A DNA stretch of 42,859 nt from Nitrospirae bacterium CG2_30_53_67 (GTDB lineage: Bacteria > CG2-30-53-67), in the NCBI GenBank assembly GCA_001873285.1, contig MNYV01000035.1:1-42859 (forward strand), given 5' to 3'. The position numbers and the translations under genes were made by a program. Of the stretch, positions 27,385 to 36,299 are shown piece by piece. A model generated the notes under the pieces. The model saw nothing but the letters and a program-made list of their open reading frames with translations. It was not told the origin of the DNA and ran no database searches. Position 1 is the first letter of the stretch. Each line of letters opens with the position of its first letter.

Positions 27385-28641
27385 ATGAAACGACTTCTGA
27401 TCTTAGGGGCTGGCACAGCAGGAACCATGATGGCACACAAGATGCGCCGGAGACTCAAAGTCTCTGAATGGGACATCACCGTCATAGACAAAAGCGAAAA
27501 ACATTATTATCAACCGGGCCTGATTTTTGTTCCTTTCAAATTACACGGTTACACCGATGAAAAAGGAAGCGTGAAAAATACCAAGGATCTTCTCCCCAAG
27601 GACGTAAACTTTATAAATAAACCTATCACCCGACTCGACCCGGAAAATAACCGCGTGGAGACCGCAGATGAGTCGTTTGAGTATGATTGGCTGATCCTCG
27701 GCCTCGGCTGCAGGATCGCGCCGGAAGAGGTTCCGGGGCTTGAGGAAGGCTACGGCAAAAACGTATTTTATTACTATACCATGCCGTCAGCCCTGGATAT
27801 GCAGAAGGCCCTGGAGGATTTTGATGGAGGGAGGCTGGTCCTGAACATTGCAGAATATCCCATAAAGTGCCCGGTTGCGCCGATCGAGTTTATCTGCCTG
27901 GCCGACTACTTCTTTCACCTCAAAGGGATCCGCCATAAAGTGGACTTGGAAGTGGTCACCAGCGCGCAGGGAGTTTTTACCAAACCGGTGGCCGGACGTA
28001 TGCTGGGGGACATGTTCAAGGCAAAGGGGATCAAGGTAACCCCTAACTTCCCTGTGGCCGAGGTCCGTTCGGACCAGGGGAAGATCATCTCCCATGATGG
28101 GCAGGAGGTCCGTTTTGACTTCCTCGCCTCCATTCCGCCCAATGTGGGGGCGGAAGTCATCGATCAGGCCGGCATGGGAAATGGAAACGGCTATGCCCTC
28201 ACGCATCCGAACACCCTGAAATCCCAGAAGTACGACAACATCTATGTGATCGGCGACTGCACCAACGTCAATACCTCCAAGGCCGGATCCGTGGCCCACT
28301 TCGAGGCAGGAATCGTGGAGAGAAACCTCCTGAGGGAGATGGAAGGAAGGGCGCCGCTCCCGGATTTTGACGGGCACTCCAACTGTTTTATTGAAACCGG
28401 CTTCAAAAAGGCGCACTTGATTGATTTCAACTACAAGCAGGAGCCGATTCCCGGAAGATTCCCGCTCCCTACTTTCGGCCCCTTCTCATTGTTGAAAGAG
28501 ACACGGCTAAACCACATGGGAAAGCTCTTTTTCCGGTGGTTTTACTGGAATATGCTGCTGAGTGACTTGGTGGATCTGGAGATGATTATTCCTACGAGCA
28601 TGAGCTATCTCGGAAAGGATCTCTCATACGTAACAAAGTAG
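27385..28641 (+). CDS. sqr: Sulfide:quinone oxidoreductase
   Basis: 418 residues. FAD protein of the SQR family that oxidises sulfide at the membrane and passes electrons to quinone, releasing polysulfide or sulfane sulfur. FAD motif GAGTAGTMMAHKMRR at the start, a second one at YVIGDCTNV, and redox cysteine candidates in LGLGC, YPIKCPVAP and HSNCFIET. The C-terminal 60 residues are aromatic and amphipathic (KLFFRWFYWNMLLSDLV), fitting membrane attachment. The ribosome site is AAAGGAGAAAAG. The gene is alone behind the riboswitch, and the sulfur-carrier genes follow. The SQR subtype is not certain. Confidence 0.9.
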   Translation: MKRLLILGAGTAGTMMAHKMRRRLKVSEWDITVIDKSEKHYYQPGLIFVPFKLHGYTDEKGSVKNTKDLLPKDVNFINKPITRLDPENNRVETADESFEYDWLILGLGCRIAPEEVPGLEEGYGKNVFYYYTMPSALDMQKALEDFDGGRLVLNIAEYPIKCPVAPIEFICLADYFFHLKGIRHKVDLEVVTSAQGVFTKPVAGRMLGDMFKAKGIKVTPNFPVAEVRSDQGKIISHDGQEVRFDFLASIPPNVGAEVIDQAGMGNGNGYALTHPNTLKSQKYDNIYVIGDCTNVNTSKAGSVAHFEAGIVERNLLREMEGRAPLPDFDGHSNCFIETGFKKAHLIDFNYKQEPIPGRFPLPTFGPFSLLKETRLNHMGKLFFRWFYWNMLLSDLVDLEMIIPTSMSYLGKDLSYVTK

Positions 28642-28660
28642 TGCATGGCCTCTTGCACCA

Positions 28661-28838
28661 CAGGCCGGCAGACAAGAGGCCCGTTCCGGAGATATGACGA
28701 AGCATCGTTTGACCAGGCGCTGTCCTTGAAAAACATGCCTCCTTGCCCGGTATGTCTCAAAGCCTTTCTTGAAATCATGGATGGCGCATGAGACGCATCG
28801 GCATATCTCCGGGACGGGCCGCAGAGTCTGCCGGCCTG
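28661..28838. repeat. Long imperfect palindrome, 178 bp
   Basis: The outer arms CAGGCCGGCAGAC (28661-28673) and GTCTGCCGGCCTG (28826-28838) are perfect inverted repeats. Pairing continues inward with GGCCCGT/ACGGGCC and CCGGAGATATG/CATATCTCCGG, about 37 bp per arm with a few mismatches. The inner 90 bp pair weakly and have no ORF. It lies between sqr and the Rrf2 gene and could be a non-autonomous mobile element, a structured RNA or an mRNA end. No T-run follows. The rest of 28642-29029 holds only the Rrf2 promoter and operator. Confidence 0.75.
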
Positions 28839-28957
28839 CCCTCCCTATTCAATTGAACCTCATCGAATATCCTTTTCTGGACGGCAGATCCAAAATATGA
28901 AATACTCATGAACCGTCTTCATCCGATCGGTTTTTTTCTCTCATTAGTTTTTTCAAC

Positions 28958-28985
28958 TTGACAGCCGGAAAAACTTGGTTATAAT
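28958..28985 (+). promoter_or_regulatory. Sigma-70 promoter of the Rrf2-isc operon
   Basis: TTGACA (28958-28963), a 16-bp spacer and TATAAT (28980-28985), about 45 bp before the Rrf2 start. Confidence 0.8.
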
Positions 28986-28996
28986 TAAGACAAATT

Positions 28997-29011
28997 GGAC
29001 ACTTTTTGTCC
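28997..29011 (+). promoter_or_regulatory. Likely Rrf2 autoregulatory operator
   Basis: GGACA-N5-TGTCC is a perfect dyad a few bases after the predicted transcription start. A second, overlapping dyad GACAAA-N10-TTTGTC (28989-29010) is also visible. The position fits repression of its own operon by the Fe-S Rrf2 protein. It does not match E. coli IscR type 1 or 2 sites. Confidence 0.5.
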
Positions 29012-29029
29012 TGTGTTCAGGGAGATTTT

Positions 29030-29449
29030 ATGAAACTCACACGGGCTGGAGAATATGGCATACGAGGAATGCTTTACCTGGCCATGCAGCCCAAGGATCG
29101 GGTGACGCTTCTCAGTGATATCTCCAATACCCAGAATATTCCTGAAAGTTATTTATCAAAAATTTTTCAGATACTGACCAAGGCCGGGCTCGTCCGATCC
29201 CACCGCGGGTTTAAAGGGGGATATACCCTTGGGCTCCCTCCGGAAGAGATCACGATCAAAGATATCATCGAAGGAATTGAAGGCCCCATTGCGCTAAACC
29301 GCTGTGCCATGGAAGAGAGCCTGTGCAGTGAGGACACCGGCTGCCGGATTCAGGATGTCTGGAAAGATGCTCAAAACGCCATGGTCGGCGTCCTCGCAGG
29401 GACTACCCTTGCGAATTTGGTGGAAAAGTCGTTGTCCGGAGGGTCATAA
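29030..29449 (+). CDS. Rrf2-family Fe-S regulator (IscR-like)
   Basis: 139 residues. Winged-helix Rrf2 protein (MKLTRAGEYGIRGMLYLA, then YLSKIFQILTKAGLVRSHRGFKGGY). Three cysteines in a 15-residue stretch near residues 89-102 (CAMEESLCSEDTGC) match the cluster-binding triad of IscR-type proteins. It probably senses Fe-S status or a related signal and controls the following iscS-iscU genes. An in-frame ATG eight codons upstream (29006) is less likely, because GGGAG lies correctly before 29030. Promoter and a dyad operator lie directly upstream. Confidence 0.9.
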   Translation: MKLTRAGEYGIRGMLYLAMQPKDRVTLLSDISNTQNIPESYLSKIFQILTKAGLVRSHRGFKGGYTLGLPPEEITIKDIIEGIEGPIALNRCAMEESLCSEDTGCRIQDVWKDAQNAMVGVLAGTTLANLVEKSLSGGS

Positions 29450-29489
29450 AGATCTCAAAAGAGGTCTTTCTCAGCAAAAGGAGCGCGCC

Positions 29490-30662
29490 ATGAACAGAAT
29501 CGTCTACCTTGATTATGCTGCATCTACACGCCCTTATCCCGAGGTCATTGAGGCCATGCAGCCCTTTTTTCTGGAGCATTTCGGGAACCCTTCCAGCTTC
29601 CATGTTTTCGGTACGGCCCCGAAGAAGGCTATCGAGCAGGCCAGAGCGGAATTGGCGGACCTCATCCATGCCAAACCTGAAGAGATCCTCTTCACGGCAT
29701 CCGGCACAGAGGCCAACAACCTGGCTGTCAAAGGGATTGCCATGGCCATGGAAAAGAAAGGAAAGCATATCATCACATCGGCCATTGAGCACTACGGTGT
29801 GCTTCATTCCTGCAAGATGCTGGAACGGCTGGGCTTCGAGATCACCTATCTCCCTGTGGACGAATATGGGATGGTAGACCCTGATGAGGTAGGCCGTTCC
29901 ATCAGGAAAGATACCATCCTGGTTTCCGTGATGCTGGCCAACCATGAAGTGGGAACCATCCAGCCGATCCGTGAAATTGCAGAAATCACACGCGGGAAAA
30001 AGATCCCCCTCCATTCCGACGCCCGCATGGCCGTGGGACATATCCCGGTCGACGTGGGAGCATTGGGCGTCGACCTGCTCACCATCTCAGGGCAGCACTT
30101 TTACGGACCCAAAGGGTCCGGCGCCCTTTTCATCAGTAGGGGGACCCGCATCCAGCCGCTGATCCACGGGGGCATACAGGAACAGGGGCGGAGAGCCGGC
30201 ACCGAAGATGTCCCCGCCATTGTCGGGCTGGGAAAAGCCTCGGTCATGGCAAAAGAAAAAATTCTTGAAGAGATGAAACGTATCGCCGCATTACGAAACA
30301 AACTGGAAAAGGGGCTGATCAATCAAATCGATGAATTGAAGGTGAATGGTCATCCGGAGAAACGTCTTCCCGGCTTTCTGAATATTTGCGTTAGATATGT
30401 GGAAGGTGAAGGGATGATCATGATGCTGGTCTCCAGGGGGATCATGGCGGCCAGCGGTTCAGCCTGTTCTTCCAAGGCATTGAAGGCGTCTCATGTATTG
30501 ACGGCCATGGGTGTGGACCATGCCACGGCACAGGGATCCCTCCTGTTCAGTCTCGGCAGGGAAACCCAAGAAGAAGATATTGATTATGTCCTTGCCGAGA
30601 TGCCCCCGGTCATTAAAAGGCTCAGAATGATGTCTCCCATCTATCCCGGGAATCGTTCCTGA
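29490..30662 (+). CDS. IscS/NifS-like protein lacking the PLP lysine
   Basis: 390 residues, clearly of the IscS/NifS fold (YLDYAASTRP, FTASGTEANNLAVKG, ANHEVGTIQPI). The segment that normally reads S-x-H-K-x-YGPKG is SGQHFYGPKG here, so the PLP-binding lysine is His203 and the preceding His is Gln202. Two further PLP contacts are changed: the second Asn of ANNExG is His152, and Gln of HxDAxQ is Met180. By contrast the sulfur-carrying loop is intact (ASGSACSS, Cys326), as are His101 and Asp177. Classical cysteine desulfurase activity is therefore unlikely. Archaeoglobus fulgidus IscS also lacks this lysine yet forms a complex with IscU. The ribosome site is AAAAGGAGCG. It lies 40 bp after the Rrf2 gene and 29 bp before iscU. 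Confidence 0.9.
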   Translation: MNRIVYLDYAASTRPYPEVIEAMQPFFLEHFGNPSSFHVFGTAPKKAIEQARAELADLIHAKPEEILFTASGTEANNLAVKGIAMAMEKKGKHIITSAIEHYGVLHSCKMLERLGFEITYLPVDEYGMVDPDEVGRSIRKDTILVSVMLANHEVGTIQPIREIAEITRGKKIPLHSDARMAVGHIPVDVGALGVDLLTISGQHFYGPKGSGALFISRGTRIQPLIHGGIQEQGRRAGTEDVPAIVGLGKASVMAKEKILEEMKRIAALRNKLEKGLINQIDELKVNGHPEKRLPGFLNICVRYVEGEGMIMMLVSRGIMAASGSACSSKALKASHVLTAMGVDHATAQGSLLFSLGRETQEEDIDYVLAEMPPVIKRLRMMSPIYPGNRS

Positions 30663-30691
30663 CATGGATAGGGAATCGAAAGGAGAAGACT

Positions 30692-31084
30692 ATGCAGCAT
30701 TCAGATTACAGTGAAAAGGTCATGGACCATTTTAATAATCCCAGAAACATGGGGGAAATCCGGAATCCGGATGGAGAAAGCCAGGTCGGAAATCCAACCT
30801 GCGGGGATATGATGCAGATCCAGATCAAGGTGGAGGATGGCAAGATCAAGGAGGCCAAGTTCAAGACCTTCGGCTGTGTTGCGGCCATTGCCACCAGCAG
30901 CATTTCAACGGAAATGATTATCGGAAAGACCCTTGAAGAGGCTGAAAAACTGACCAACGATGCCGTGGCCCTGGCTCTTGACGGGCTTCCTGCGCATAAG
31001 CGGCATTGCTCGGTTTTGGCGGCGGAGGCTATCCAGGCCGCCATCCAGAACTACCGGGAACATGCCCTCGGCGGCGCGAAATAA
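30692..31084 (+). CDS. iscU: Fe-S cluster scaffold IscU
   Basis: 130 residues. Scaffold on which 2Fe-2S clusters are built. All three ligand cysteines are present (NPTCGD, FGCVAAIATSS, HKRHCSVLAAEA), with the regulatory Asp two residues after the first. It begins YSEKVMDHFNNPRNMG like most IscU proteins. It has an AAAGGAGAAG ribosome site and follows the lysine-less IscS-like gene. IscA, HscA/HscB and ferredoxin of the classical isc operon are missing, so this is a minimal pair. Confidence 0.95.
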   Translation: MQHSDYSEKVMDHFNNPRNMGEIRNPDGESQVGNPTCGDMMQIQIKVEDGKIKEAKFKTFGCVAAIATSSISTEMIIGKTLEEAEKLTNDAVALALDGLPAHKRHCSVLAAEAIQAAIQNYREHALGGAK

Positions 31085-31102
31085 AAATAAAAAGGAACCT
31101 GT

Positions 31103-31498
31103 ATGGCGGAAAAAATGGCCCTGATCGTCTTCAGCAATGAGATTGACAAACTGATCGCTACCTTTAATCTTGCCTTGGGCGGGGCTTCCATGGGGATGGA
31201 TGTGGTTCTCTTCTTCACCTTTTGGGGGCTCGAACTCCTAAAAAAAGACAAGACCGGAGACAGTTATCAGAAACCGAATCCTTCACTGGAGAAGATGATG
31301 GCCCATCCTAAGTTTCCATCCATCGACCAGATGGTGAAGATGTGCAAGGAGATGGGGGTCAAGTTTATCGCCTGCACACAATCCATGGAATTCATGGGAC
31401 TCACCAAGGATGATCTCCTCCCTGTGGTGGACAGTATAGCCGGCGTTGCAACGTTCCTGGCCGATGCTGAAAACGCTAAAATCAATCTTCTGATATAA
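31103..31498 (+). CDS. DsrE2-like sulfur-carrier protein
   Basis: 131 residues. It resembles the DsrE/DsrF/DsrH superfamily, subgroup DsrE2: N-terminal LIVFSNEIDKLIATFNLA, long DVVLFFTFWGLELL strand region, and the C-terminal FIACTQSMEFMGLTKDDLL with Cys91 in the usual redox position. A second Cys81 lies ten residues before. Such proteins hold persulfides and pass sulfur to TusA. It lies 18 bp after iscU and 15 bp before tusA, so it is in the same operon. Confidence 0.85.
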   Translation: MAEKMALIVFSNEIDKLIATFNLALGGASMGMDVVLFFTFWGLELLKKDKTGDSYQKPNPSLEKMMAHPKFPSIDQMVKMCKEMGVKFIACTQSMEFMGLTKDDLLPVVDSIAGVATFLADAENAKINLLI

Positions 31499-31513
31499 GG
31501 TAAGGAGGAAGCA

Positions 31514-31816
31514 ATGGGAACAAAGCAAACGACAGCCGTAAAAGCGGATGTAGTCCTTGACGCCTTTGGATTGATCTGCCCGATGCCGATCGCCAAGACC
31601 TGTCAGGCCATCAAGGGAATGGAGGTCGGACAGGTCCTGGAGGTCATCGCCGACGACCAGGGAATCGTTGAGGATATGCCGAGCTGGTGCCATACCACGG
31701 GGAATGAATTCCTCGGGATTGCGGAAGACCATGGTGAATATCATGCCTTCGTACGTAAGAGAGTCATCGACAGCAAAGAATGCCGTAGGCCCCCATGCAA
31801 TCATCCGTCTCAATAA
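31514..31816 (+). CDS. tusA: TusA family sulfurtransferase
   Basis: 100 residues. Small sulfur-relay protein with the hallmark CPxP motif (LICPMPIAKT, active Cys22). It carries persulfide sulfur between DsrE-type proteins and acceptors. The N-terminus VVLDAFGLICPMP and the middle GQVLEVIADDQGIVEDMPSWC are typical. A tail of about 20 residues with two extra cysteines (KECRRPPCNH) is unusual. The ribosome site is AAGGAGG. It ends the isc-dsrE-tusA run. Confidence 0.9.
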   Translation: MGTKQTTAVKADVVLDAFGLICPMPIAKTCQAIKGMEVGQVLEVIADDQGIVEDMPSWCHTTGNEFLGIAEDHGEYHAFVRKRVIDSKECRRPPCNHPSQ

Positions 31817-32407: not shown

Positions 32408-32583
32408 AAGGATAAGACTTTCCCTTCATTTTCGTGCGCCTGCCTGTTACAGACAAAATAAAACTTTTCATTTATTTTTCAGAAAAAGTCGGTTTTTTAT
32501 CATTTTTTTTGTGACTTTCCCCCTTTTCAAACCACTATATAGACAGAAACGGATTGATTAACCAGGCAAAATTAGGGGGCGAT

Positions 32584-32961
32584 ATGCAATTTCCGGATAC
32601 CACGCTTATTGAGGGGGTTCTCTCAAAGGACAAGAAGGCATTTGAAATGATGTATGAGACCTATTTCCCGAAGATTTATAATTATACTTTTTTTCATGTG
32701 GGCGAGAAAAAACTGGCCGAACAGATGACCGAGGAGATTTTTATCGAATTGGTCGGCACACTCGATCAATATACCAAGGGATTCTCTCTGGATCAGTGGA
32801 TCTTCAGGATCACTAGAAGGCACATGAACCCAGTTAAATCGCGGCAAAAGGAGGGGGATGCCCATCCGATCCGGAATGAAGATATCAGCCTCACCGATTT
32901 TTTTAAATTCGAGGAGGCCCTGTTGGCACATCGTCATCATGAAGTCATATACGGAGGTTAA
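32584..32961 (+). CDS. Minimal sigma-70 region 2 protein
   Basis: 125 residues. Residues about 15-80 resemble sigma-70 region 2 of ECF factors (FEMMYETYFPKIYNYTFFH, then AEQMTEEIFIELVG and WIFRITRRHM). Region 4, which reads the -35 element, is absent: the remaining 45 residues are charged and of no known fold. The ATG at 32584 has an AGGGGG ribosome site; an in-frame ATG at 32554 is less likely. The next small membrane protein follows by 6 bp, as in sigma/anti-sigma pairs. Either a truncated sigma factor or a region-2-only regulator. Confidence 0.7.
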   Translation: MQFPDTTLIEGVLSKDKKAFEMMYETYFPKIYNYTFFHVGEKKLAEQMTEEIFIELVGTLDQYTKGFSLDQWIFRITRRHMNPVKSRQKEGDAHPIRNEDISLTDFFKFEEALLAHRHHEVIYGG

Positions 32962-32967
32962 AGCAGC

Positions 32968-33192
32968 ATGGCAAAGAAAGTCACCAAACATTCATGGCTG
33001 CATGATCCTGATCAGAAACAGCAATTGAACTGTTCAGATGAGATTGAGGAGCTTGAAAAATTTCATGAGGCGGATCAAATGCCGATTAAACCGTCTGAAA
33101 AGTTCAAATCAGATCTCAAGGAAGAGCTTTGGAAAATCCTGAAGAATAAATACTACATCGTCTTTGCCTTAAGTATATTCTTCTTCGGGTGA
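32968..33192 (+). CDS. Small C-terminally anchored protein, possible anti-sigma partner
   Basis: 74 residues. Charged, helical N-terminal 55 residues, including KPSEKFKSDLKEELWKIL, which looks like the juxtamembrane part of many anti-sigma factors. The last 15 residues (YYIVFALSIFFFG) form a short hydrophobic segment that could insert in the membrane. An excellent GGAGG ribosome site overlaps the stop of the sigma-like gene. The role as its partner is inferred from position and size only. Confidence 0.6.
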   Translation: MAKKVTKHSWLHDPDQKQQLNCSDEIEELEKFHEADQMPIKPSEKFKSDLKEELWKILKNKYYIVFALSIFFFG

Positions 33193-33251: not shown

Positions 33252-33318
33252 TTCTCTTTATTCTTTCCCAAATAATACTTAATTGCTTTTCCCGCCCTAT
33301 CATCCCATACTGAATGAT

Positions 33319-34107
33319 ATGGATACGAGTCTTCTGGCCATACTCTTCTTGCTCGGCCTCTCCGGAGGTTTTGTCTCAGGACTTCTGGGAATCGGGGGAG
33401 GGATCATCATGGTCCCCCTCCTGCTCTATGTCCCCCCGGCGCTGCGCCTGGGCGCCCTCTCCATGAAGGAAGTGGCCGGCATGACTTCGGTCCAGAGTTT
33501 TTTCGGCGCAGCGTCCGGAGCCGTCGCCCATAAAAGACATCGACAAGTCAGCGCTCCTTTGGCCTGGGTCATGGGATCCGGCATGGGAACCGGGTCCCTC
33601 GCAGGGTCCTTCGGCTCCAAGGTCGTCTCTTCGGAGGCCATCCTCATCCTCTTTGCGCTCATGGCCCTGACGGCTTCCATCCTGATGTTCTTCCCAATTC
33701 CCGAATATGACGGGCAGGAGTCCGATGTACGGAATCTGATATTCAACAGGCCTCTTGCCTTGGCCGTCGGCTTGTCCATCGGCCTTCTATCCGGCATCAT
33801 CGGTCAGGGAGGCGCCTTCCTGTTCATTCCGGCCATGATTTATATCCTCCGCATCCCCACAAGAATCACCATCGGGACAGCCATGGTCATCGGTATGGTC
33901 TCCTCGGTCTCGGTTCTGATCGGCCGGATGGGAACCAACCAGATCCCCTATCTAAAAGCAGGGGTCCTGGTTGCAGGGGTACTGATCGGGGCGCAGGCCG
34001 GCGCGGCCGTAAGTCAGAAAACACCGACAGCCGTCCTCCGTAAAATCCTGGCTGTGATCATTGCAGCCACGGCCGTCAAGATCGGGTATGAACTTCTCAT
34101 CACATAA
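33319..34107 (+). CDS. TauE/SafE (TSUP) family membrane transporter, copy 1
   Basis: 262 residues with about seven to eight membrane segments. The repeated family motif is seen as GGFVSGLLGIGGGIIMVPLLL near the start and LSGIIGQGGAFLFIPAMIY in the second half. TSUP proteins move small sulfur or organic anions such as sulfite, sulfoacetate or thiosulfate. A TTG start at 33283 would add 12 residues, but ATG 33319 matches the start of the paralogue at 35086. It is followed after 25 bp by the candidate selenoprotein gene. The true substrate is unknown; the neighbours suggest a sulfur anion. Confidence 0.85.
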   Translation: MDTSLLAILFLLGLSGGFVSGLLGIGGGIIMVPLLLYVPPALRLGALSMKEVAGMTSVQSFFGAASGAVAHKRHRQVSAPLAWVMGSGMGTGSLAGSFGSKVVSSEAILILFALMALTASILMFFPIPEYDGQESDVRNLIFNRPLALAVGLSIGLLSGIIGQGGAFLFIPAMIYILRIPTRITIGTAMVIGMVSSVSVLIGRMGTNQIPYLKAGVLVAGVLIGAQAGAAVSQKTPTAVLRKILAVIIAATAVKIGYELLIT

Positions 34108-34132
34108 AGGATTCATAGAAAAGGAGAAAAAC

Positions 34133-34459
34133 ATGAATAAAATTAAAGTTAGATTCTTCCTAAATGAACCGAATGGCAAAACGTGAAACCATTTTAAGCA
34201 AATGATGCCCAGTTTGGGCATCAAATACGAAATAGAAATAGAAACCATCACAAAACCCCGGGCGGAATACCGCACCAGAGAGTATCTTAAGCAGGGTTTA
34301 CCAGCGGCGCCGGCCATTATGGTGGGGAACGAAATTGTTATCGCGGGATCGAATATTTCGGTGGATAAACTTGAAGCCGTTATCTGCCGACATTTGGGAT
34401 TATCCACACCGGAGCCGCAAAAGAAAAGTTTGACTGATCGTTTATTCAAGAGTAACTAA
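34133..34459 (+). CDS. Thioredoxin-fold protein with in-frame TGA; candidate selenoprotein
   Basis: 108 residues if TGA 34184-34186 (codon 18) is read through. The strong AAGGAG ribosome site sits before ATG 34133, upstream of the TGA; the frame continues from N-terminal MNKIKVRFFLNEPNGKT through TGA into NHFKQMMPSLGIKYEIEIE and ends at 34459. The second half (GLPAAPAIMVGNEIVIAGSN) is a thioredoxin or glutaredoxin-like cis-proline region. The TGA lies where a redox cysteine would sit, after the first beta strand. A perfect hairpin follows 17 nt later. A nonsense mutation of a Cys codon is the alternative. The gene lies between TauE/SafE and DsrE genes. Confidence 0.7.
34204..34222 (+). promoter_or_regulatory. 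Candidate bacterial SECIS hairpin
   Basis: GATGCCC-AGTTT-GGGCATC is a perfect 7-bp stem with a 5-nt loop. The loop starts 25 nt after the TGA and has G as its second base. This meets the bacterial SECIS rules as I know them: apical loop 16-37 nt downstream and a G among the first two loop bases. Confidence 0.6.
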
Positions 34460-34528: not shown

Positions 34529-34951
34529 ATGGAGAAGATAATAAAGAACGTGTCGGTAATGTGTTTTCATGATGAATTATGTCAGGTTTACAATGCGCTT
34601 ATGACGGCGCTGAGCCTTCTGAGGGAGGGCTCAAAGGTAACTATCTTTTTCGGCTCGCGCGGCGTAAATGCGATTCACAAGGATAAAGTAAAAGACCTTA
34701 AATGTATGCCCGACGCACCGGAAGAGGTAAGCAATGCAGTGATGAAGAAGATGGAAGAGATGAACCTCCCGACCGTGGAAGATCTGTTTGTTATGTTGCA
34801 TATGGAAGGTGCAAGGCTGCTCGCCTGCCCTTTGAATGTCCCGTTGTTCGGTATGAACAGAGACAACTTTGTGGAAGGAGTTGAAATCGCGGACCCCGCT
34901 ACATATTATAAAGAAGTGGTTGTGAAGGCTGACATGAACCTGACATTTTAA
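34529..34951 (+). CDS. DsrE-family protein
   Basis: 140 residues, DsrE/peroxiredoxin-like fold: an N-terminal strand-helix region with YNALMTALSLLREGSKVTIFFG, and a C-terminal LLACPLNVPLFG, with Cys100 in the usual sulfur-carrying position. Further cysteines are Cys12, Cys18 and Cys59. Likely a cytoplasmic persulfide carrier. It lies between the candidate selenoprotein and the second TauE/SafE gene. The start ATG at 34529 has only a moderate ribosome site (GGGTGTAAAG). Confidence 0.8.
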   Translation: MEKIIKNVSVMCFHDELCQVYNALMTALSLLREGSKVTIFFGSRGVNAIHKDKVKDLKCMPDAPEEVSNAVMKKMEEMNLPTVEDLFVMLHMEGARLLACPLNVPLFGMNRDNFVEGVEIADPATYYKEVVVKADMNLTF

Positions 34952-35085: not shown

Positions 35086-35874
35086 ATGACGGCAAACTTA
35101 GGTATCACCTTATTTACCCTTGGCCTGGGCGGCGGGTTTCTATCCGGTCTTCTCGGTCTCGGCGGTGCGATCTTCATGATTCCCTTGCTGCTTTATGTGC
35201 CGCCGTTCCTCCACGTGGGACAGCTCACCATGAAGACCGTGGCGGCCATCTCCATGGTCCAGGTCCTGTCCGCGTCGATCTCGGGTGTGATCGTCCATCA
35301 TAAGAACCGTTTTGTCAGCAAGAAACTGATTGCAACCATGGGAATCACCATGGTCGCCGGCGCTCTTTCCGGTTCTATCTTGTCCAAAAGATCGAGTTCT
35401 ATCTTTCTTCTCGGCATCTTTGCTGTAATGGCCTTGATTGCAGCGGTGATGATGTTTATCCCGAAACGGGAACAGGGTTCGGAGATTGACCCGGAGTCTA
35501 TCACTTTCAATAAGCCGGCCGCGGCGCTTGTCGGTTTGTTTGTGGGTTTTTTCGGCGGAATGGTGGGCGCGCCCGGTGCGTTCATTCTCATCCCGATCAT
35601 GATTTATATCCTTAAGATTCCAACACGAATTGTCATCGGATCCACACTCGGGATTGTCTTACTGGGGGCTGCTGCCGGGACCATTGGAAAACTTGCGACT
35701 GGGCAGATTATCTGGCCCATGGCGCTTTTGCTCGTTGCAGGAACCATACCTGGGGCGCAGATCGGCGGCGCCGTGAGCAAAAAGACAAAGGTTCAGACGC
35801 TGCGTATTCTGATCGCCGTCATCATTGCGATCACCGGTTTGAGAATGTTCTATCAGGTCTTTACCGGGAGGTAG
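35086..35874 (+). CDS. TauE/SafE (TSUP) family membrane transporter, copy 2
   Basis: 262 residues, the same length and layout as the copy at 33319 and clearly similar throughout (GGGFLSGLLGLGGAIFMIPLLLYVPP; FFGGMVGAPGAFILIPIMIYILKIPTRI). The conserved second motif differs at GQGG (copy 1) versus GAPG (copy 2), so the substrate may differ. Ribosome site GGAGG at about 35073. It lies between two DsrE genes. Two similar transporters this close suggest duplication with divergence, or a heteromer. Confidence 0.85.
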   Translation: MTANLGITLFTLGLGGGFLSGLLGLGGAIFMIPLLLYVPPFLHVGQLTMKTVAAISMVQVLSASISGVIVHHKNRFVSKKLIATMGITMVAGALSGSILSKRSSSIFLLGIFAVMALIAAVMMFIPKREQGSEIDPESITFNKPAAALVGLFVGFFGGMVGAPGAFILIPIMIYILKIPTRIVIGSTLGIVLLGAAAGTIGKLATGQIIWPMALLLVAGTIPGAQIGGAVSKKTKVQTLRILIAVIIAITGLRMFYQVFTGR

Positions 35875-35939
35875 AGAATTCGGATGCACATAGGGAGTAA
35901 CCCCGTATTTGCGAATCCATGAAAAGAAAGGGAAACACC

Positions 35940-36299
35940 ATGAGCAAAAAAATCACTTTAGTCATCACGCACTCCACGGATAATCACGACCGGGCCAACG
36001 CGGCGATTGCCTTGGCAGCGTCTCTGATCAGTGAAGGGGCTGATCTGACCCTCTTTTTTATTTTCGAGGGGGCCCTAATGGCAAGAAAGGGCGTGGCCGA
36101 GACCATTGAAGGGAGATATTTGACGCCGGTTCGGGAACTCTTCCCCATGATTCTTGAAGCAAAGATCCCTATGTATGTCTGCGGGGCCTGTGTGAAGGCT
36201 TATGAGATCCCTGCGGACGAGATCATGGATGGGTTCCTGATCACCCATATCCCGACATTGGCCGGAGAGATGATGCAGGGAGAAACCATCACCTTCTAA
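35940..36299 (+). CDS. DsrE-family protein with CGAC motif
   Basis: 119 residues, DsrE-like fold (KKITLVITHSTDNHDRANAAIALA, GADLTLFFIFEGALMARKG). Cys81 and Cys84 form CGAC, the likely sulfur-binding pair. The start was set at 35940, where AAAGGGAAA precedes the ATG; a start 7 codons upstream is possible. It follows the second TauE/SafE gene by 65 bp and ends the sulfur region. No terminator is visible before the mod operon. Confidence 0.85.
   Translation: MSKKITLVITHSTDNHDRANAAIALAASLISEGADLTLFFIFEGALMARKGVAETIEGRYLTPVRELFPMILEAKIPMYVCGACVKAYEIPADEIMDGFLITHIPTLAGEMMQGETITF

Follow-up and report, generated by a model that had tools for sequence, protein, structure and literature searches.

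The stretch of DNA analyzed here (hereafter, the window) comprises 42,859 nucleotides of contig MNYV01000035.1 of Nitrospirae bacterium CG2_30_53_67, whose genome is available as a draft assembly of 183 contigs that is 95% complete. Among its genes is a short one, tsoC, predicted to encode a selenoprotein, whose frame runs from its ATG through a TGA and is open up to the TAA at 34457-34459 (Table 1). The ribosome-binding site, the ATG at 34133, the TGA at 34184 and the open frame had been pointed out in an earlier note on this DNA, and direct reading confirmed all four; no signal peptide is evident in the product. The same note had placed the gene in a cluster of DsrE and TauE/SafE genes, and matches to PF13686, PF02635 and PF01925 agree with this. 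Further upstream, at 27385-31816, a sulfur cluster is found that includes genes for a sulfide-quinone-reductase-like flavoprotein, DsrE2 and TusA, along with putative Rrf2-type regulator, NifS-like and NifU-like genes, named from sequence. Just 5' of the upstream TauE gene, at 32554-33192, a short open reading frame (ORF) with sigma-70 region 2 is followed by an ORF of 74 codons, an arrangement that may be left over from a sigma factor gene.

Table 1. Features at and around tsoC in the window, with their basis.
Feature	Position	Strand	Basis or remark
TauE/SafE family permease, directly upstream of tsoC	33283..34107	+	PF01925, E = 4.3e-45
Ribosome-binding site AGGAG of tsoC	34122..34126	+	Direct sequence reading
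tsoC, predicted selenoprotein gene	34133..34459	+	108 residues, Sec = codon 18, TAA included
In-frame TGA, putative Sec codon	34184..34186	+	TGA in 51/51 collected homologues and 42/42 survey matches
SECIS-type hairpin, 9 bp, GUU loop	34203..34223	+	Fold, conservation, covariation, codon bias, published constraints
DsrE2-like gene (DrsE_2 family)	34529..34951	+	PF13686, E = 4.6e-16
TauE/SafE family permease	35086..35874	+	PF01925, E = 1.6e-45
DsrE-family gene, unit membership uncertain	35919..36299	+	PF02635, E = 5.1e-15

As to the identity of the protein, the ORF, when read with selenocysteine (Sec), matches a single NCBIfam equivalog, NF045708 ("NEPxGxxU motif selenoprotein TsoC"), far beyond its cut-off (143.5 bits versus 45), with residues 4-89 aligned to positions 1-86 of the 87 in the model and with the signature motif present as NEPNGKTU (residues 11-18). 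The same model is matched by all 46 aligned homologues. TsoC is a published family of the three-selenoprotein (Tso) operon (PMC13188914), credited there, with its model, to Haft & Tolstoy 2025. The match thus makes it very probable that 34133-34459 is a real selenoprotein gene, yet one of no new family, and the earlier description of a new selenoprotein has to be given up.

The in-frame TGA and the hairpin downstream

Selenocysteine insertion at UGA 34184 and membership of the gene in TsoC form one joint claim, to which, from the sequence evidence, we assign a probability of about 0.96-0.97. It has to be weighed against the possibility that an ordinary thioredoxin-like gene of the Cys type has suffered a nonsense mutation or been misread in sequencing, in which case any real product would start at ATG 34202, past the TGA. 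An 85-residue ORF does begin at that ATG, and the source is a draft genome in many contigs, but the comparison of homologues speaks strongly against such an event. The earlier note had proposed to see whether relatives carry Cys or TGA at codon 18, and among 51 distinct TsoC sequences collected from their loci all 51 have TGA at the Sec codon and none has Cys. A survey of 395 genomes, from the phylum of a Desulfobulbaceae relative, uncovered TsoC in 30 of them, with 42 matches, each possessing one internal TGA, while no Cys homologues were found in these genomes at E <= 1e-6. The start, the frame and the ribosome site 5' of the TGA are conserved as well, AGGAG-type sites preceding nearly all homologues, and the frame, the TGA and the hairpin, with its covariation (see below), are kept in distant relatives. 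The invariant TGA in practice rules out a nonsense mutation at codon 18, and we attach almost no weight to this explanation.

It could also be proposed that this UGA is translated otherwise than as Sec, through a code in which UGA specifies Trp or through non-specific read-through. Such an idea requires only that the TGA be translated, and we found nothing else in its favor, while the genome encodes the complete set of Sec genes, the SECIS-type hairpin is conserved at the RNA level and the neighboring ORFs are normal under table 11. The Sec genes, whose presence the earlier note had made a check on its proposal, were all recovered: a tRNA-Sec with a TCA anticodon, SelA (611.6 bits), SelB (296.8 bits) and SelD (158.3 bits), the latter two each running into a contig end and thus seen in part, their full length not visible. 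The Sec genes and the normal stops of the neighboring ORFs rule out other recoding of UGA, leaving it a negligible probability.

The genome also carries (locus L114, G000:C132, 1932-2501, + strand) an ORF preceded by AAGGAGGG that encodes a thioredoxin-domain protein with a TPR-like C-terminus and an in-frame TGA within FNPGUSGC (UxxC). In NCBIfam it comes closest to the TsoB model, with 51 bits, and to the VPGUxxT type 2 model, with 42 bits, each far under its cut-off; it is a probable second selenoprotein of the genome carrying tsoC.

The hairpin has the form UGAUGCCCA-GUU-UGGGCAUCA, with a folding energy of -14.2 kcal/mol (z = -3.2 against shuffles) and a conserved core made up of the upper 5-6 bp. 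The stem of 7 bp with an AGUUU loop noticed earlier is real and represents its inner part; the full stem, however, has 9 bp and the loop 3 nt, so that the loop does lie 25 nt past the TGA, as had been stated, but with G as its first base instead of its second. Published constraints on bacterial SECIS (bSECIS) elements call for a loop of 3-9 nt, a stem of 4-16 bp, a G as first or second loop base, a distance of 16-37 nt from the UGA and an energy of at most -7.5 kcal/mol (PMC13188914), and the hairpin agrees with all of them. Hairpins satisfying these constraints follow 60 of the window's 1,749 TGA codons (both strands), and only at 34184 is there, in addition, a start codon before the TGA and an open frame of 60 codons or more after it, which places the observation beyond chance.

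Comparisons among homologues point in the same direction. Nearly all TsoC sequences retain the core GCCCA/UGGGC, the loop begins with G in 50 of 51, and compensatory changes are seen in three of six hairpin pairs across 28 diverse sequences, with a covariation score that none of 500 shuffles reached and that is lost on sliding the partner. Codon choice under the hairpin is skewed, the Arg codon being AGG in 46/46 sequences, against an AGG share of 15% among the remaining Arg codons of these genes, and the Pro codon CCC in 47/48 versus 43% elsewhere, indicating a constraint there that goes beyond the protein, even if these counts, coming from related sequences, are not independent events. A SECIS-type hairpin had been claimed from the window alone, and it is now substantiated by the published constraints, conservation and covariation; the claim of selenocysteine at 34184 likewise gains from the Sec genes, the invariant TGA and the compensatory changes. 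Codon bias and covariation both back the SECIS element of tsoC, which we regard as a well-supported case of predicted UGA recoding from an uncultivated lineage.

TsoC in its genomic settings

The product is modeled by AlphaFold2 (46 homologues) with confidence as a thioredoxin-type fold (pLDDT 88, pTM 0.77) in which helix 1 (residues 16-31) has Sec18 near its start, and Foldseek matches this model to thioredoxins at modest TM-scores of 0.5-0.6, in support of the fold assigned in the earlier note; a search of the PDB with a sequence profile returned no significant match. Residues invariant in the alignment of 46 proteins include N11, P13, G15, Sec18, L56, P57, A59, P60 and A61. Overall, the Sec codon, the SECIS element, the fold and the neighbors are supported by comparative evidence, and it is the genomic setting of tsoC that is worth following.

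Of 40 TsoC loci, 28 have TsoB alongside, whole or in part, commonly in the order ArsR - TsoA - TsoB - TsoC - VTT protein; the NCBIfam models of the three selenoproteins are NF045695 (TsoA), NF045694 (TsoB) and NF045708 (TsoC). TsoB is a rhodanese-DsbD fusion with two Sec residues, and the example of locus L018, scoring 1,018 bits on its model, contains rhodanese, DsbD and thioredoxin domains. In both the window genome and the other genome of its genus (G001), TsoA was not found and TsoB remained below the cut-off, while the same searches were positive in a genome of the same family (G002) and in most genomes with TsoC. Both proteins are thus likely absent from the window genome, at 95% completeness of the assembly. 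Many Tso operons (L018-L023, L080, L084) possess two TsoC copies, of the NDPCGxTU and NEPNGKPU types, the former with a Cys four residues N-terminal of the Sec, which suggests two working partners. At G382:C128:37540-39243, a TsoB homologue (913 bits, over the cut-off) without an internal TGA adjoins the usual two-TGA form of that genome and is probably a non-Sec version.

The set of TsoC, DsrE2-like and TauE genes is kept in G001, with a DsrE2-like copy 98% identical to that in the window, and is rearranged in a Desulfobulbaceae genome (G106; 62%). One G106 locus (L107, G106:C36, 6471-12884, + strand) is a hybrid operon without TsoB, in which an upstream ArsR is followed by TsoA - TsoC - TauE - DsrE2-like - SQR-like flavoprotein - MMPL exporter. 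A TauE/SafE gene also accompanies TsoC in another G106 locus and in G125, and adjoins the divergent TsoC of G234. In the sample, drawn from 395 genomes of a single phylum together with relatives, 12 loci have no TsoB nearby, some of them ending at contig ends, and 6 of these have TauE no more than 3 kb from TsoC, as against none of the 28 with TsoB; the hypergeometric chance of this pattern, calculated by hand, is about 2e-4, for a pattern noticed post hoc and for loci that are not independent (two from one genus, two from one genome). The TauE/SafE gene upstream of tsoC was not found beside TsoC in G001 or the other compared loci, nor was the DsrE-family gene found adjoining TsoC in other loci. 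As close homologues of the DsrE2-like protein (64-66%) are encoded away from TsoC in G405 and G250, the association of TsoC with DsrE2 is the looser one. The unusual feature of the window is that tsoC has genes for sulfur carriage and sulfur export as its neighbors rather than its usual two selenoprotein partners. A literature search on selenoprotein, DsrE and TauE, its scope leaving aside the original description of TsoC, returned no relevant report.

From these neighbors, a link of TsoC to persulfide handling can reasonably be proposed. SelB with Sec-tRNA would read UGA 34184 as Sec, directed by the hairpin within the coding sequence, resulting in a small thioredoxin-fold protein with Sec but without a partner Cys at +3 (UNHF), the selenol of which may act as a one-residue, monothiol-like nucleophile. 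It could take sulfane sulfur from the DsrE2-like carrier encoded by the adjacent gene, or reduce a disulfide on it; the reduced sulfur would then be passed on, to be moved across the membrane by the TauE/SafE permease. In most Tso operons TsoB may replace both, its rhodanese part the carrier and its DsbD part the membrane partner. Such a sulfur-transfer role appears less likely than not.

It is at least as likely that the role of TsoC is purely redox- or metal-related. A selenoprotein for general thiol redox or for metal or metalloid handling, with DsrE and TauE outside its pathway, has close to an even chance. Its thioredoxin fold, a weak similarity to the MTH895/ArsE family, and the ArsR-type regulators, TsoB (with DsbD and thioredoxin domains) and VTT protein of the usual operon would all be in line with it, while the adjacency to TauE and DsrE2-like genes, conserved across separate lineages, and the rhodanese domain of TsoB argue for sulfur instead. 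We tentatively suggest, at somewhat less than even odds, that TsoC is a module of two alternative systems, combined either with TsoA and TsoB (rhodanese-DsbD) in the Tso operon or, in the absence of TsoB, with a TauE/SafE permease, sometimes joined by a DsrE2-like carrier and an SQR-like flavoprotein, TauE and DsrE2 replacing TsoB in a selenium-dependent unit for sulfur transfer and export. The TauE/DsrE2 setting offers a testable clue to the function of TsoC, in handling sulfur compounds at the membrane.

Comparison with known systems

With thioredoxin, TsoC shares the position of its Sec18, which stands at the first active-site Cys, and of its conserved LPxAP motif, which stands at the place of the cis-proline loop. 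The proposal of Sec in place of a redox cysteine calls for care, no Cys form of TsoC having been seen (0/51). The CxxC or UxxC of classical thioredoxins is not seen, the window copy having UNHF, and +3 from the Sec is not Cys across the TsoC alignment, making a CxxC-type cycle within the motif impossible in this copy. Thioredoxin_3 and MTH895/ArsE-type proteins (PF13192, TIGR00412) are alike in fold and match weakly by profile (E = 0.01 and 0.0055, respectively), but TsoC scores under their curated cut-offs and has a single Sec and no CxxC. From other members of NF045708, which it resembles in the full-length match, the NEPNGKTU motif, the TGA at the Sec codon and a SECIS-type hairpin at the same place, the window copy differs in standing without TsoA and TsoB, next to DsrE2-like and TauE/SafE genes. 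The genus of the window probably falls outside the Tso operon as defined by these two proteins, but TsoC is common to both settings, and both would combine it with a sulfurtransferase-type domain and a multi-pass membrane protein.
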